Part shown: piece after piece, positions 20,717 to 49,040 of the stretch
Layout: the number at the start of each line of letters is the position of its first letter
Numbering within the stretch: position 1 is the stretch's first letter
NCBI RefSeq assembly: GCF_013391805.1
Contig: NZ_CP058364.1
Span: forward strand, 2,299,501-2,363,500
Length of the DNA stretch: 64,000 nucleotides
Direction of reading: 5' to 3'
Origin: Galbibacter sp. BG1
GTDB lineage: Bacteria > Bacteroidota > Bacteroidia > Flavobacteriales > Flavobacteriaceae
Position numbers and translations under genes: made by a program
The notes under the pieces: generated by a model
The model's database searches: none
The model's input: only the letters and a program-made list of their open reading frames with translations
Told to the model about the DNA's origin: nothing

Positions 20717-21667
20717 ATGAGCAATACAATTACAACTACCGATTTTAATTTTCCGAAGCAAAAAAACGTTTACAAGGGAAAGGTTAGGGAAGTTTATAAT
20801 ATTGATGATGAAATACTGGTTATGATAGCCACCGATAGGCTTTCTGCTTTTGATGTTATTATGCCTAAGGGAATTCCATACAAAGGTCAGATTCTAAATC
20901 AAATTGCCACAAAAATGATGGACGCCACAAAGGATATTGTGCCTAATTGGTTGTTGGCAACCCCAGACCCCAATGTGGCTGTGGGACATTTGTGTGAACC
21001 TTTTAAAGTGGAAATGGTAATCCGCGGTTATTTATCGGGCCATGCTGCTAGGGAATATAAAGCCGGGAAGCGTTTGTTGTGTGGGGTAGGGATGCCCGAA
21101 GGGATGAAAGAGAACGACAAATTTCCTGAACCAATAATTACGCCTTCTACCAAGGCAGATCAAGGCGATCATGATGAGGATATTTCGCGCGAAGCTATTC
21201 TTGAAAAAGGAATAGTTTCTGAAGAAGATTACCTAGTACTGGAAAAATATACTCGTGCATTATTTCAAAGAGGATCCGAAATTGCGGCAGAACGCGGACT
21301 CATACTTGTTGATACCAAATACGAATTTGGAAAAACAAAAGATGGAAAAATTGTGTTGATAGATGAAATCCATACCCCAGATTCTTCAAGATATTTTTAT
21401 GCTGATGGATACCAAGAACGTCAAGATAAAGCCGAGCCACAAAAACAACTTTCTAAGGAATTTGTGCGCCAATGGCTTATAAGTAATGGTTTTCAAGGGA
21501 AAGAGGGACAACAGATTCCCGAAATGGACGACAATTATATTCATTCAGTTTCCGAAAGATACATCGAGCTTTACGAAAAAATCACAGGTGAAAAGTTTGT
21601 AAAAGGAGACGTAAGTAATATTCAAGAGCGCATAGAGAAGAATGTTTTAGAGCATTTAAAAAAATAA
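20717..21667 (+). CDS. purC: Phosphoribosylaminoimidazole-succinocarboxamide synthase (SAICAR synthetase)
   Basis: It joins aspartate to CAIR in purine synthesis, using ATP. The 316-residue length is typical of the longer eukaryote-like/Bacteroidota form. Motifs include [14 protein letters not shown] at the N-terminus, [19 protein letters not shown], the signature [15 protein letters not shown], the [14 protein letters not shown] loop and [18 protein letters not shown]. The gene is alone in its transcription unit, with a promoter box 28 nt upstream. It is followed after 26 bp by a 21-bp repeat array rather than an obvious terminator. Confidence 0.96.
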
Positions 21668-21693: not shown

Positions 21694-21944
21694 TGCATAC
21701 TCCACTTACATCACTGCATAAAGCGTTTACAGGGCTGCATAGCCCACTTGCATCACTGCATAAAGCGTCTGCAGGGCTGCATAGCCACTTACATCACTGC
21801 ATAAAGCATTTACACGGCTGCACAACCCACTTACATCACTGCATAAAGCATTTACATGGTTGCACAGCCCACTTACATCGCTGCATAAAGCGTTTACATG
21901 GCTGCATAGCCCACTTACATCGTTGCATAAATTGTTAATAAAAT
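21694..21944 (+). repeat. Array of twelve 21-bp units downstream of purC
   Basis: TGCATA or TGCACA recurs at 21694, 21715, 21736, 21757, 21778, 21798, 21819, 21840, 21861, 21882, 21903 and 21924. Every step is 21 bp except one of 20. Two alternating subtypes exist, one continuing GCCCACTTACATCAC and the other AAGCGTTTACAGGGC, so the higher-order period is 42 bp. An open frame across it (21690-21938) reads as heptapeptides, but the 20-bp unit shifts its phase, so coding is unlikely. The array starts 26 bp after the purC stop. Confidence 0.93.
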
Positions 21945-22294
21945 GTTAAATACACTAATGTTTTAAATAGTTGCACTTGGTGTTAGTAGACTATGCTAGT
22001 CATTTAAATCTATCACTGACGTTTACGCATGATTGTAATTTCTTTGTAGAAAACGGTTTTTATCCATTTTTTCGCTCAATTACGTCGCATAAACTATTAA
22101 CCACAAGTAATCCTCGATGAACTCCGTCGAAATACCTACCATAGATTTTTTTGAGAATCGTATTTGTGCTTTATTTATTGAATTGATTTTCAGTTAAATA
22201 TGCTATTTTCAAGGTATTCAACTAGACGCTAAGTACTTTAAATGCAACGTTTTCGTATTAGGTTGTTTTTATAAAAATAAGTACTTTAGTCAGC
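21945..22294. other. Non-coding gap before acs with an 11-bp direct repeat
   Basis: No gene is seen in these 350 bp. TAAGTACTTTA occurs twice, at 22230-22240 and 22278-22288; its core AAGTACTT is a palindrome. The second copy sits 6 nt before the acs ATG. A short inverted repeat GACTA/TAGTC lies at 21989-22001. The acs promoter must be here, but no exact TAnnTTTG box was found. Confidence 0.5.
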
Positions 22295-24205
22295 ATGAGT
22301 AATTACCACATCAAACACTTAGAGGAGTATTTTCAAGTTTACCGAAAGTCAGTTCGCGACCCAGAAAATTTTTGGGGGGAAGTTGCCGAAGAGCACTTTT
22401 TATGGCGAAAAAAATGGGACAATGTTTTAGAATGGGATTTCACCAAGCCCGAAATTAAATGGTTTCAAGGAGCCAAATTAAACATTACCGAAAATTGCAT
22501 CGATAGGCATTTAAGAACACGCGGCAATAAAACTGCCATCATTTGGGAGCCTAATAGTCCAGACGAAGAGGCGTTGCATATTAGTTACAATGAATTACAT
22601 GAACGGGTTTGCAGGTTTGCAAATGTTTTAAAATCAAAAGGGATTAAAAAGGGAGATCGCGTATGCATTTATCTTCCTATGATTCCAGAATTGGCTGTTT
22701 CCGTTTTGGCTTGTGCCAGAATTGGCGCTATTCATTCCGTAGTTTTTGCAGGATTTTCATCCACAGCGCTTTCCACTAGAATCAATGATGCCGATTGTAA
22801 AATGGTTATCACTGCAGATGGTTCTTTCCGCGGAAGTAAAACCATCGACCTTAAAGGGATTGTAGATGAAGCTTTGGAAGACTGTCCAAGTATTGAATCA
22901 GTTTTGGTTGCCAAGCGTATTGAATCTGATATTAATATGAAGGAGGGGCGTGACGAGTGGTTGCAGCCTTTGTTGGATGATGCAGAACAAACTTGCGAAC
23001 CAGAAATTGTAGATGCTGAAGATCCACTTTTCATTTTGTATACTTCCGGTTCTACGGGAAAACCGAAGGGGATGGTTCACACTTCGGGAGGCTATATGGT
23101 TTATACGGCGTATACTTTTAAAAATATTTTTCAATACCAAGAAAACGATGTGTATTGGTGTACGGCAGATATTGGTTGGATTACCGGGCATAGTTATATT
23201 GTGTACGGACCCCTAGCCAACGGCGCTACTACAGTAATGTTTGAAGGCGTTCCTTCGCACCCTGATTTTGGGAGGTTCTGGGAAATTGTAGATAAACATA
23301 AAGTAAATCAGTTTTATACCGCGCCAACCGCTATTCGAGCGTTGGCAAAGAATAATTTGGACTTTGTCACAAAACACGATTTGTCTTCACTAAAAGTATT
23401 GGGATCTGTAGGAGAGCCCATTAATGAGGAGGCTTGGCACTGGTATAATGACAACGTTGGAAAAAGCCGATGTCCTATTGTAGATACGTGGTGGCAAACA
23501 GAAACAGGAGGGATTATGATATCTCCCATTCCGTACGCTACGCCAACTATTCCAACGTATGCAACTTTACCGTTGCCAGGAATTCAACCCGCTTTAATGG
23601 ATGAAAACGCCAAAGAGATTAAAGGGAATCTTGTGGATGGCCGTTTATGCATTAAATTCCCGTGGCCGTCTATTGCTAGAACCATTTGGGGGAATCATGA
23701 GCGTTATAAAGACACCTATTTTTCAGCCTACGAAAACATGTATTTCACGGGAGATGGGGCGCTTCGTGATGCCGTTGGGTATTATAGAATTACGGGACGT
23801 GTAGATGATGTGGTAATTGTCTCCGGACATAATTTAGGTACAGCGCCTATTGAAGATGCCATCAACGAACATCCTGCTGTGGCGGAATCAGCAATTGTAG
23901 GTTATCCGCATGATGTAAAAGGAAATGCTCTGTACGGATTTGTAATCTTAAAAGAAGTAGGGGAAACCCGTGACCGTGAGAACTTGCGAAAAGAAATCAA
24001 CCAACAGATCACAGAACATATCGGTCCGATTGCTAAATTGGATAAAATTCAGTTCGTAAGCGGATTGCCAAAAACGCGGAGTGGAAAAATTATGCGTAGG
24101 ATTTTACGGAAAATAGCATCCAACGATCTCTCCAATCTAGGAGACACCAGTACGCTATTAAACCCCGATGTAGTCGATGAGGTAATAAAGGAGAAAATTG
24201 ATTAA
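22295..24205 (+). CDS. acs: Acetyl-CoA synthetase (AMP-forming)
   Basis: It activates acetate to acetyl-CoA through acetyl-AMP. The 636-residue protein carries the P-loop-like YTSGSTGKPKGMVHTSGGY (about 249-267), the WWQTETGG motif, TGDGALRD, and the hinge YRITGRVDDVVIVSGHNLGT. The acetylatable lysine segment KTRSGKIMRRILRKIA is near the C-terminus. The N-terminal ACS domain (VYRKSVRDPENFWGEVA) is present. It is a single gene ending at a terminator. The Lys in the SGK motif is a classic sirtuin target, and a sirtuin is encoded 2 kb downstream. Confidence 0.95.
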   Translation: MSNYHIKHLEEYFQVYRKSVRDPENFWGEVAEEHFLWRKKWDNVLEWDFTKPEIKWFQGAKLNITENCIDRHLRTRGNKTAIIWEPNSPDEEALHISYNELHERVCRFANVLKSKGIKKGDRVCIYLPMIPELAVSVLACARIGAIHSVVFAGFSSTALSTRINDADCKMVITADGSFRGSKTIDLKGIVDEALEDCPSIESVLVAKRIESDINMKEGRDEWLQPLLDDAEQTCEPEIVDAEDPLFILYTSGSTGKPKGMVHTSGGYMVYTAYTFKNIFQYQENDVYWCTADIGWITGHSYIVYGPLANGATTVMFEGVPSHPDFGRFWEIVDKHKVNQFYTAPTAIRALAKNNLDFVTKHDLSSLKVLGSVGEPINEEAWHWYNDNVGKSRCPIVDTWWQTETGGIMISPIPYATPTIPTYATLPLPGIQPALMDENAKEIKGNLVDGRLCIKFPWPSIARTIWGNHERYKDTYFSAYENMYFTGDGALRDAVGYYRITGRVDDVVIVSGHNLGTAPIEDAINEHPAVAESAIVGYPHDVKGNALYGFVILKEVGETRDRENLRKEINQQITEHIGPIAKLDKIQFVSGLPKTRSGKIMRRILRKIASNDLSNLGDTSTLLNPDVVDEVIKEKID

Positions 24206-44003: not shown

Positions 44004-44261
44004 AACGAATTAGTTTTCTACTAAAATAGTTGAAAGTTTATTAAGATAAAAACATTGGTTGTGCAGAAAATCAATTAGTTGAAAGAACTGGATGTTCCTA
44101 TTAAATAGAATTATTGCGTTGCTATTTTAATTAAGATGAGATAAGAATGGTTGAAATATAACATAAAGCCTTTAGATTGTTTGGTGATGTAAGTTTTTGC
44201 TGAAAAAATAATACGTAGTTTTACAACTGAAAAGTTCTTTACATACAAATCAATCTAATTA

Positions 44262-44411
44262 CGGTGCTGCCTAAGGTAGAATAATAGGGAATTGTGTGAG
44301 AATCACAAGCTGTCGCGCAACTGTAAGTAACCAAACGAGTTTTTATCAATAAATCCACTGTTTTTTAAAATGGGAAGGAGATAAAAATGTTACAAGCCAG
44401 GAGACCTGCCA
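44262..44411 (+). promoter_or_regulatory. Cobalamin (B12) riboswitch upstream of metE
   Basis: The aptamer core is visible: GGTGCTGCC near 44263, GGGAATTGTGTGAGAATCAC followed by AAGCTGTCGCGCAACTGTAA (44287-44327), and the B12 box AGCCAGGAGACCTGCC (44395-44410). With adenosyl- or other cobalamin bound, it should switch off metE, the B12-independent synthase. The 258 bp before it (44004-44261) show no gene and no exact promoter box. Confidence 0.95.
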
Positions 44412-44419
44412 AAATTAAA

Positions 44420-44503
44420 ATGATGATGCTTTCGCGATTGAAGCAATATTCAAGAATTGGTAGCCAAACACCCTGTGGAGAACTTGGTGAATACTGCTAT
44501 TGA
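44420..44503 (+). CDS. Possible 27-residue leader peptide between riboswitch and metE
   Basis: An open frame begins ATGATGATG right after the riboswitch and encodes about 27 residues (MMMLSRLKQYSRIG at the start, EYCY at the end) before TGA. It lies in the expression platform and could be a leader peptide or an accident of structure. No family is recognised. Confidence 0.25.
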   Translation: MMMLSRLKQYSRIGSQTPCGELGEYCY

Positions 44504-47012: not shown

Positions 47013-47507
47013 CTAAATTTTAGAATAGCTAATACGGTCGCCTTCCTGTATCTTGAATTCGTTGGCCATACCGGCGTTCAACTCCAAAACATATTGGGCG
47101 GGCTTTTTGGAAGGCAATGAAGATTCATTACGTGGTTGGGCATTTTTTACCATGCTTACAATCTTCATTTGGGAATCTATGTAAATGATATCCAAAGGAA
47201 TGTCGGTGTTTTTCATATAGAAAAAGCGAGGCTTTTCGTCTGGAAAAACAAACAACATTCCTTGGTTTTTATCCATAGAAGTGCGGTACATAAGTCCAGT
47301 TTGCCTTTCGTACTCGTTATCGGCTATTTCGATATTTATGTTTTCAATAATTGTAGAATCCCCGCGAGAAATACGCAGTTCCCCTTCTTTGTTAAAGGAA
47401 ACTTCTTCCGTAATTACTTCTTTCTTATCGTTATTGGTTTCACAGCTTACCAAGGATAAGCACAGGAGAATTAAAAGGAGTAAAATTCTTACCAAGAAAT
47501 TTATCAT
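47013..47507 (-). CDS. DUF192-family lipoprotein
   Basis: A 164-residue protein with a lipoprotein signal (LLLLILLCLSLVSC) and the DUF192 domain: ADNEYERQTGLMYRTSMDKN, GMLFVFPDEKPRFFYMKNTD, IPLDIIYIDSQ and VLELNAGMANEF. The family is a small conserved beta-rich domain with no proven function. Its start overlaps the lgt stop by four bases (ATGA), so it is the downstream, coupled gene of lgt. Confidence 0.9.
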   Translation of the reverse strand: MINFLVRILLLLILLCLSLVSCETNNDKKEVITEEVSFNKEGELRISRGDSTIIENINIEIADNEYERQTGLMYRTSMDKNQGMLFVFPDEKPRFFYMKNTDIPLDIIYIDSQMKIVSMVKNAQPRNESSLPSKKPAQYVLELNAGMANEFKIQEGDRISYSKI

Positions 47508-48328
47508 GACACTTTTTTTGAAGGTTTAAACATGAGATAAAAACCGATGATTATAAATGGGATACTTAACCATTGTCCGGTGGAAAATAGGCCAAGTTCC
47601 GATTCGAATCCGCCTTGCGATTTTTTATAGAATTCAGCAATAAAACGAACCGTCCACGTTAAAACCAACCATAGACCGAACATAAAGCCTATTTTATCTT
47701 TTTTGTCGGTTTTCCAGTAGGTATAAAGCAAAGCAACAAACACGATTACATAGCCAAAGGCTTCGTATAATTGCGCAGGATGCCTTGGGAAGGTTTCGCC
47801 CAATTGCTTAAAAATAACTCCGTAATCGCTGTTGGTAGGTTTTCCTACAATTTCTGAATTGAAAAAGTTCCCTAACCGCACAAAAACACCGCCAATTGCT
47901 ACGGGAATGGTAATACGGTCCAAAATCCACAGGACAGGTTTTTTAATTACTTTTTTGCTGTAGATAAACATGGCAATAATTACTCCAATTGCTGCCCCAT
48001 GACTGGCAAGACCTCTAAAGCCAGTAAATTCGAATTCTGGGCTAAATTTAAAAGGAAGAAAAATACTCAAAGGATCTTCTAAAAACATGCTGGGCTCATA
48101 GAATATAAAATGTCCCAAACGCGCTCCAATTAAAATGGAAAGCACCATGTAAATAAACAGGGAATCTAAAGACTCTTCTGACTGATTTTCATTTTGGTAA
48201 ATCTTTTTCATGAGAAACCATCCCAGGGAAAAAGCAATGACAAACATTAAACTGTAATACCTCAACTGAAAAAATCCTAAATCTAAAAGAATCCCATCTG
48301 GATTCCAAGTAATACTCAAAAAGTGCAT
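47504..48328 (-). CDS. lgt: Prolipoprotein diacylglyceryl transferase
   Basis: It attaches diacylglycerol from phosphatidylglycerol to the lipobox cysteine of prolipoproteins in the inner membrane. The 274-residue protein has seven hydrophobic segments and the family motifs GARLGHFIFYEP, GFRGLASHGAAIG, the catalytic region IPVAIGGVFVRLGNFFNSEI, and RHPAQLYEAFGY. Many lipoproteins in this window are substrates. It is followed by the DUF192 gene. Upstream, across a 21-bp repeat array, lies yidD on the same strand. Confidence 0.94.
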   Translation of the reverse strand: MHFLSITWNPDGILLDLGFFQLRYYSLMFVIAFSLGWFLMKKIYQNENQSEESLDSLFIYMVLSILIGARLGHFIFYEPSMFLEDPLSIFLPFKFSPEFEFTGFRGLASHGAAIGVIIAMFIYSKKVIKKPVLWILDRITIPVAIGGVFVRLGNFFNSEIVGKPTNSDYGVIFKQLGETFPRHPAQLYEAFGYVIVFVALLYTYWKTDKKDKIGFMFGLWLVLTWTVRFIAEFYKKSQGGFESELGLFSTGQWLSIPFIIIGFYLMFKPSKKVS

Positions 48329-48479
48329 GCTTGTTTATTTTGAGGTAAATATAGGTATTTGAAGTATTACGGTAAAGATAATTTTAAGGAATAAGGCTAA
48401 AGTAGTGTTAAAGGCGATGGCTATAGAATGCAATGGATACACCTTGTTTCATGATGTTTGATGATCGATTTTAACAATT

Positions 48480-48710
48480 TATGCTTTACTCACATTGGTC
48501 TATGCTTTACTCTAGGTGGCTTATGCTGTGCTTCCATTGGTCGATGCTGTCATGCCAACGGCCTGTGCTGTAATTCCAGTTCTCTATGCTGTGGTGTAAA
48601 TGACTTATGCGATGCTTCTATTGGTTTATGTTTTACTTCAAACGCATATTGCTTTAAATAAATCGGTTGATGTTGCAGTGAAAATGGTCAATGCTTTGTT
48701 GGTAGAAGGC
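48480..48710 (+). repeat. Array of eleven 21-bp units between yidD and lgt
   Basis: TATGC or a near match recurs at exactly 21-bp steps from 48480: 48501, 48522, 48543, 48564, 48585, 48606, 48627, 48648, 48669 and 48690. Units are more diverged than in the purC array but keep a TATGC(T)(G/T)T start and often end TTGGTC or TGACT. Read on the minus strand, the array begins 33 bp after the yidD stop. A 67-codon open frame (48458-48661) across it reads as cysteine-rich heptapeptides and is probably a by-product of the 21-bp period. Confidence 0.85.
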
Positions 48711-48743
48711 TTTACCAAGGAAACAAAGTCTGTTTTTATGGAT

Positions 48744-49040
48744 TTATGGAACAGGGTCGTAACCCGAGCCGCCCCAAGGACCGCAGCTAAGAATTCTTTT
48801 TATGGCCAACCAACCTCCTTTAAAAAGACCGTGTTTTTTTAGGGCTTCCAAAGTATACTGGGAACAGGTTGGGGAATACCTGCAAGTCGCTGGCGTAAAA
48901 GGCGAAATAGCCGCTTGGTAGAAACGTACTAGAAATATAAATGGCGCTATGAGGATTTTTTTTAGGATCGTTTTATTTGTTTTTTTACTTGTGAATTTTA
49001 CCAATTGAATTTTTCTTCCCAATCTAATTGCCAAAAGCAT
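48744..49040 (-). CDS. yidD: Membrane protein insertion efficiency factor YidD
   Basis: A small membrane-associated protein that helps YidC-dependent insertion. The core is intact: [35 protein letters not shown] with its three cysteines, and [15 protein letters not shown]. The length from the ATG at 49040 is 98 residues, about 20 more than usual at the N-terminus ([20 protein letters not shown]), so translation may really begin nearer to the KKILIAPF segment at a non-ATG codon. It is followed by a 21-bp repeat array. Confidence 0.88.

Follow-up and report, generated by a model that had tools for sequence, protein, structure and literature searches.

What are the 21-bp repeats that lie between yidD and lgt in the genome of Galbibacter sp. 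BG1, and do they belong to the 3' ends of genes? The window, which is the whole 64,000-nucleotide stretch of DNA that was analysed, is part of a 3.71-Mb single-contig genome and contains two arrays of this kind, one after yidD and one beside purC (Table 1). An earlier note, made from the letters of the window, had proposed that the two are related and had read them as a recurring 3' element, perhaps of an undescribed repeat family, rather than as chance slippage.

Two related arrays in the window

The units of the yidD/lgt array start at 48479, 48500 and so on to 48689 without an indel, which confirms the eleven units at exact 21-bp steps described previously, and columns 4-6 read TG followed by C or T in all eleven. 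Lag-21 identity reaches 109 of 189 bases at this array and is higher in the window at the purC array alone (111), with 85 at the next place and a maximum of 86 in 60 windows of 64 kb simulated from a first-order model of the real one. Both offsets given by the earlier note are as it stated, namely 33 bp from the yidD stop and 26 bp from the purC stop, the latter measured from 21667 to the array end at 21694 given by the tandem-repeat finder.

Table 1. Arrays, anchors and adjoining genes in the window (positions are those of the window).
Feature	Position	Strand	Remark
purC (PF01259)	20717..21667	+	26 bp from far end of purC array
purC/acs array, 11 units	21694..21931	-	alternating 42-bp order; one 20-bp unit
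Anchor TTATTAACAATTTATGC	21925..21941	-	start of purC/acs array
acs (acetyl-CoA synthetase; PF00501, PF16177)	22295..24205	+	start faces anchor of purC array
lgt (PF01790)	47504..48328	-	start ~140 bp from anchor end of yidD array
Anchor ATTTTAACAATTTATGC	48468..48484	+	5' start of yidD/lgt array
yidD/lgt array, eleven 21-bp units	48479..48709	+	anchored subtype; between yidD and lgt
yidD (PF01809; 98 aa)	48744..49040	-	stop 33 bp from array far end (48710 to 48744)

The relationship between the two arrays (unit at 48585, TATGCTGTGGTGTAA; purC units, TATGCAGTGATGTAA) is borne out by their 21-column profiles, for which phase 0 on the same strand is the best of 42 alignments, with a similarity better than that of all 5000 column-shuffled controls. 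An array at C1:724 kb matches both of them (0 of 5000 shuffles in each case), and the profile match to units of the sister species G. mesophilus was reached by 0 of 5000 shuffles for the yidD array and by 19 of 5000 for the purC array. A feature that had escaped the earlier note is the start sequence common to both arrays, listed as the anchors in Table 1.

Two side observations concern the neighbourhood of the purC array. Upstream of acs, at 22087-22100 (-), lies TTAATAGTTTATGC, one mismatch from the anchor, and the acs upstream region of G. mesophilus retains CATAAACTATTAACC at the matching position; TTAATAGTTTATGC may be a promoter element or a relative with a single unit. G. mesophilus also has a second, partial purC (last 80 residues) ~1.2 kb from the full gene (L144, L150; G006 C4:198775-201126).

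Distribution of the family and constraint on its unit

The arrays begin, on the TATGC strand, with a common start, TTAACA(A/G)TTTATGC, referred to as the anchor. The exact 14-mer TTAACARTTTATGC occurs three times in the genome of the window, always at the start of an array and nowhere else. The genome of G. mesophilus (G006, eight contigs) has eight exact copies, each followed by a 21-bp array, as well as arrays at one-mismatch anchors (L118, L124 and the three-unit array L125), giving at least 11 anchored arrays, and Joostella atrarenae (G003) has one short anchored array. Over the seven genomes of the genus, 12 of the 13 exact copies start an array, the exception being the copy in G001; six other one-mismatch anchor loci, fetched from three genomes (L126-L131), have no array. 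None is found among the best-scoring candidates of G001, G002, G004 and G005, and array counts are minima, the best candidates of each genome having been scored. Further copies, for which the earlier note had proposed a genome scan, thus exist both in the window's own genome and in the sister species, and the surmise that the family is undescribed agrees with the literature searched, in which no published description of these 21-bp arrays was found.

Searches beyond the genus returned little of this kind. BLAST with the purC array matched one of 149 genomes, which is the window's own. The exact 16-base anchor TTTTAACAGTTTATGC matched four of 397 family genomes, once each and without an array, in a narrow test that misses the three arrays of the window's own genome and whose sample lacks G006. 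A model designated R2 gave matches at E<=1 in at least 82 of 119 genomes, among the matches listed and under strict filters. Sixteen R2 matches were fetched, 13 from outside the genus and three from within it (L204, L207 and L220): GGTTAAT heptamer arrays, a separate kind of repeat, account for three of the 13 (L209, L211, L215) and for L220, a further two of the 13 resemble coding repeats, L218 and L219 have a weak period-21 signal, and the remaining outside-genus matches, with L204 and L207, have no clear array of this kind. At ~1407-1560 of L219 (G011, another genus of the family), four 21-bp units carry GGGTATTGATTT with a weak profile match and may be unrelated. A scan of 84,980 public species genomes for the anchor plus box found 21 stretches, of which eight have arrays (seven in G. 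mesophilus, one in J. atrarenae) and 13, from scattered taxa, have no period-21 array (lag-21 identity 0.22-0.35). The arrays are a dispersed, genus-restricted family in Galbibacter, no relative having been confirmed outside the genus among the genomes and matches examined.

A profile of the anchor plus five units also found a second subtype that lacks the anchor, with at least three arrays in the window's genome (L202, L203, L039) and at least two in G. mesophilus (L205, L206). Its unit is about CTTTGCACGACTYNGAGAWGK, as against YNWTGYWRYRCNNNRAGYGGR in the anchored subtype. When the subtypes were compared all against all, the best alignment was again at phase 0 on the same strand (reached by 3 of 5000 shuffles), a test that is only partly independent because the TTG of the second subtype served to fix its phase. 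The score of the second-subtype arrays of the window's genome against G. mesophilus was reached by 9 of 5000 shuffles, and the match of the G. mesophilus second subtype to the anchored arrays of the window's genome is weak (362 of 5000). At ~1620-1940 of L206, a 13-unit array of the second subtype, open in more than one frame, lies between two genes that by eye resemble the peroxiredoxin family; this array is probably young, since many of its units are nearly identical.

Conservation is concentrated in the same few columns in both subtypes. The anchored subtype, with 144 units in 15 arrays at a profile cut-off of 2 bits, on which the unit count depends and which drops degraded far-end units, retains T4 in 142 units, G5 in 143, A16 in 139, G19 in 128 and G20 in 118; columns 2, 12, 13, 14 and 21 hold 0.05-0.2 bits, 2 and 14 being nearly free. 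The second subtype (48 units, five arrays) has T3, T4 and G5 in all 48 units, A7 and A16 in 47, G17 in 43 and G20 in 42. The 21-bp step was followed through the 144 anchored units with four 1-bp shifts, in a walk that permitted shifts of one base only. By the 2-bit rule the J. atrarenae array has two units, and four are readable by eye. Unit score is highest at the anchor (17.5, unit 1) and falls to 9.1 at the last unit (13 arrays, scored with a profile that leaves out the array's own units), part of the fall being due to the way in which the walk is terminated.

Identity between units averages 0.60 for pairs within one array and 0.51 for pairs from different arrays. T4, G5 and A16 are 93-99% identical both within and between arrays, which argues for long-lived constraint and not recent slippage, although conservation percentages are somewhat inflated because the profile threshold favours well-matching units. 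Column 14 is 34% identical within and 26% between arrays, and column 10 38% and 31%; the gap is larger at columns 3, 7, 12, 13 and 15 (77% and 48% at column 7, 47% and 25% at column 13), so that local duplication has left its trace in columns more alike within than between arrays. By this comparison of units, the arrays are old, with the fixed columns held and local duplication visible.

Gene context, coding and RNA signals

In 19 of 20 cases the array is situated between ORFs of 100 aa or more, ORFs running through the repeat itself (two second-subtype arrays) being set aside; the exception, L039, adjoins a truncated sulfatase ORF. The ends of the anchor-side and far-side genes that face the array were tabulated for 14 anchored loci of two species, with an ORF cut-off of 100 aa, yidD entered separately and the L116 site, of which J. 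atrarenae has a copy, entered once: four are start/end (purC, yidD, L114, L124), four end/start (L113, L115, L120, L125), four end/end (L116-L119) and two start/start (the prfC site in both species). There is no preference of orientation, the eight loci between genes of the same direction being split 4:4 and two loci lying between diverging starts. What the earlier note had set against chance slippage, the relatedness and recurrence of the arrays, holds, whereas its proposal of a recurring 3' element in one orientation does not, since neither gene ends nor orientation govern where the copies lie; a 3' element in fixed orientation to the upstream gene was rejected on the 14 loci. The genes beside the arrays have no evident common function, and, the prfC site aside, only L039 and L124 hint at a common neighbour, each lying upstream of one of two genes that are 45% identical in protein.

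A post-transcriptional role, as a non-coding RNA or a 3'-UTR element transcribed from the upstream gene, which was the direction taken by the earlier note, is improbable. The far ends of the purC and yidD arrays do lie 26-33 bp after a stop, the C/T changes at TGY and AGY would be compatible with G-C/G-U wobble pairing, and the purC minus strand, one of 26 array-strands, folds better than column shuffles (z -2.7); however, the same strand has z 0.2 against dinucleotide shuffles, the remaining 25 array-strands have z values from -1.8 to 1.7 against either kind of shuffle, the split of orientations between tandem genes and the two loci between diverging starts are at odds with a fixed relation to the upstream gene, and at the L116/L122 site a terminator-like hairpin with a T-run, read by eye, precedes the anchor, between the upstream stop and the array. 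A structured RNA element was accordingly rejected, 25 of the 26 array-strands folding no better than shuffles. So was a hairpin of AGYGG with TTGY across unit borders, which is plausible by eye and is not supported by folding against the two kinds of shuffle. The strongest column correlations are mostly between near columns; the cross-unit ones (column 18 with the next 4, z 4.2; column 20 with the next 5, z 3.3) are shifted by one position from the pairings required for the hairpin, which themselves are absent from the top 14 correlations listed. Rfam has no family at the two arrays of the window, where its only match is a cobalamin riboswitch (RF00174) at 44245-44427 (+), directly upstream of a 782-aa ORF that by eye resembles metE.

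It is most improbable that the arrays encode heptapeptide repeats such as LCSDVSG or FARLREV. Twenty-one bp is seven codons, changes at TGY, AGY and GGN are synonymous in one frame, and three of the six frames are open in the purC array, two in L113 and one or more in some second-subtype arrays. Against this, the six frames have 35, 39, 43, 62, 36 and 32 stops over the 144 units, the window's own yidD array has stops in all six, and the four 1-bp shifts inside arrays break any frame; with no frame open across the arrays, a coding heptapeptide repeat was rejected. The arrays as a set have no consistent coding or RNA-fold signal. A CRISPR array was also rejected, the 21-bp units being continuous, with a variable stretch of ~8 bp and no constant repeat.

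Change between species and a putative binding protein

The gap between yidD and lgt is 415 bp with the array in the window's genome and 130, 115 and 96 bp in G. mesophilus, J. atrarenae and G005, the three of six relatives in which lgt was found directly after yidD. Relatives without an array were read at the yidD, L113 and L115 sites, and the array is thus dispensable there. At the prfC site (release factor 3; the G. mesophilus copy has RF3_C in Pfam), the window's genome and G. mesophilus each carry an anchored array; the flanks are 71% and 83% identical, and the units are largely different yet keep the same columns. The divergent long gene opposite prfC has no Pfam match in the copy of the window's genome. 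L116 (G. mesophilus) and L122 (J. atrarenae), a locus that includes a sulfatase gene, are 93-95% identical over ~3.4 kb, compared with 74% at yidD, from which the locus was probably exchanged recently between the species. A count by eye gives a difference of five units between their arrays, and a 14-base stretch, GGCCTTGCAATACA, common to units 2 and 7 of L116, the longer of the two, would allow the deletion. Higher-order duplications are present in the purC array (42 bp) and in L117 (84 bp).

Much of this could be expected of a selfish or neutral minisatellite, in which a seed spreads by recombination or along with adjoining DNA and grows in place by slippage, with no function for the cell: presence is patchy, as the yidD-lgt gap illustrates, higher-order duplications occur, and unit number has changed at L116/L122 between units sharing a sequence. 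Neutral units, however, should drift alike in all columns, whereas T4, G5 and A16 are fixed and several other columns near random, both within and between arrays and in both subtypes, and we regard such a minisatellite as a serious possibility that is nevertheless unlikely. Sites of recombination or maintenance, either iteron-like replication or partition sites or recombinase sites of a lost mobile element, are very unlikely. The anchor of L115 starts immediately at the stop codon of a DUF2461 gene, and the orthologue in the window's genome extends by one further residue and adjoins a different gene, a configuration like that of an insertion junction; the L116/L122 locus appears to have passed between species together with the surrounding DNA; and iterons are phased direct repeats of similar length. 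On the other side, a Pfam scan of 10 proteins from flanking loci (two without a family; flanking genes beyond these were read only) found no replication, initiator, partition or recombinase gene, one array used as query had no match in plasmids, viral contigs yielded one match to the anchor pattern, without period 21 or an array, and none to the second-subtype pattern, and no fixed boundary is seen at the far end of the arrays.

The observations (a fixed period, a common anchor, constrained columns, a position between genes, unit numbers that change between species, and an array that is present in some genomes and absent from others at one site) are best read as those of genus-restricted, dispersed intergenic arrays of tandem DNA sites for a putative binding protein, a reading that we consider about evenly balanced between right and wrong. 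Against it speak the dispensability of the array at the yidD, L113 and L115 sites, the absence of an evident common function among the adjoining genes, the greater likeness of some columns within arrays, and the fact that known AraC/XylS operators have two half-sites and not about eleven. The unit contains two boxes, TTGYW and AG..G (AGYGG), with 12 bp, about one helical turn, between invariant letters, and the 21-bp unit is two turns, so that every box falls on roughly one face of the DNA; the step, the two boxes and the invariant letters together suggest that a protein docks at successive units along the same side of the helix. A sequence-specific protein would read the two boxes of each unit and, if binding is cooperative, would line up in adjacent copies along the array, from the anchor onwards or with the anchor as its boundary, with a possible effect on nearby genes or on chromosome organisation. 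The arrays would shrink and grow by recombination between units and could travel with neighbouring DNA. A broader proposal is that the arrays are anchored, helically phased docking sites distributed over the chromosome, that one oligomerising protein occupies ~6 to 13 loci per genome with a role in chromosome organisation, regulator titration or insulation, that the system arose in one genus of the Flavobacteriaceae, and that the two subtypes are read by one protein or by two paralogues; taken as a whole this is speculative and rather doubtful.

Many bacterial intergenic tandem repeats are near-identical products of slippage. The units described here are far diverged except in two boxes in phase with the helix, and the start sequence is nearly identical in all anchored arrays, a pattern of divergence that amounts to a natural conservation experiment pointing to a putative DNA-binding protein, for which an 11-unit array with point-mutant controls would be a ready bait. 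Plasmid iterons are likewise tandem direct repeats of ~20 bp in register with the helix; unlike them, the arrays of Galbibacter are chromosomal, occupy many loci per genome, have no initiator among the flanking proteins scanned and consist of far more diverged units. MIRU/VNTR-like repeats are intergenic and dispersed and differ in unit number between genomes, as L116 and L122 do, but the present arrays share an anchor at one of their ends, have two boxes that hardly vary in otherwise variable units, and fall into two subtypes whose invariant positions agree.

Direct repeats of the heptamer TAACTGA are also intergenic, lie mostly just upstream of starts in a Beggiatoaceae genome and are reported as well from five Bacteroidetes; they differ from the 21-bp arrays in their 7-bp units, sequence and period (PMC4679880). 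In operators of the AraC/XylS type, as described for XylS (PMC4514859), each half-site has two boxes about a turn apart, the half-sites are direct repeats, and the motif TGCA-N6-GGNTA-N6-TGCA-N6-GGNTA adds up to a 21-bp step, with a first box that the arrays resemble in being TGCA-like. The arrays have the corresponding two-box half-site, TTGYW and AGYGG, directly repeated at ~21 bp. They differ in number and location, the operators having two half-sites at a promoter and the arrays ~3 to 13 units at promoters and convergent gene ends alike, with four of the 14 anchored loci between two gene ends. Of the described geometries that could be cited, that of the XylS operator comes closest to the 21-bp arrays of Galbibacter.
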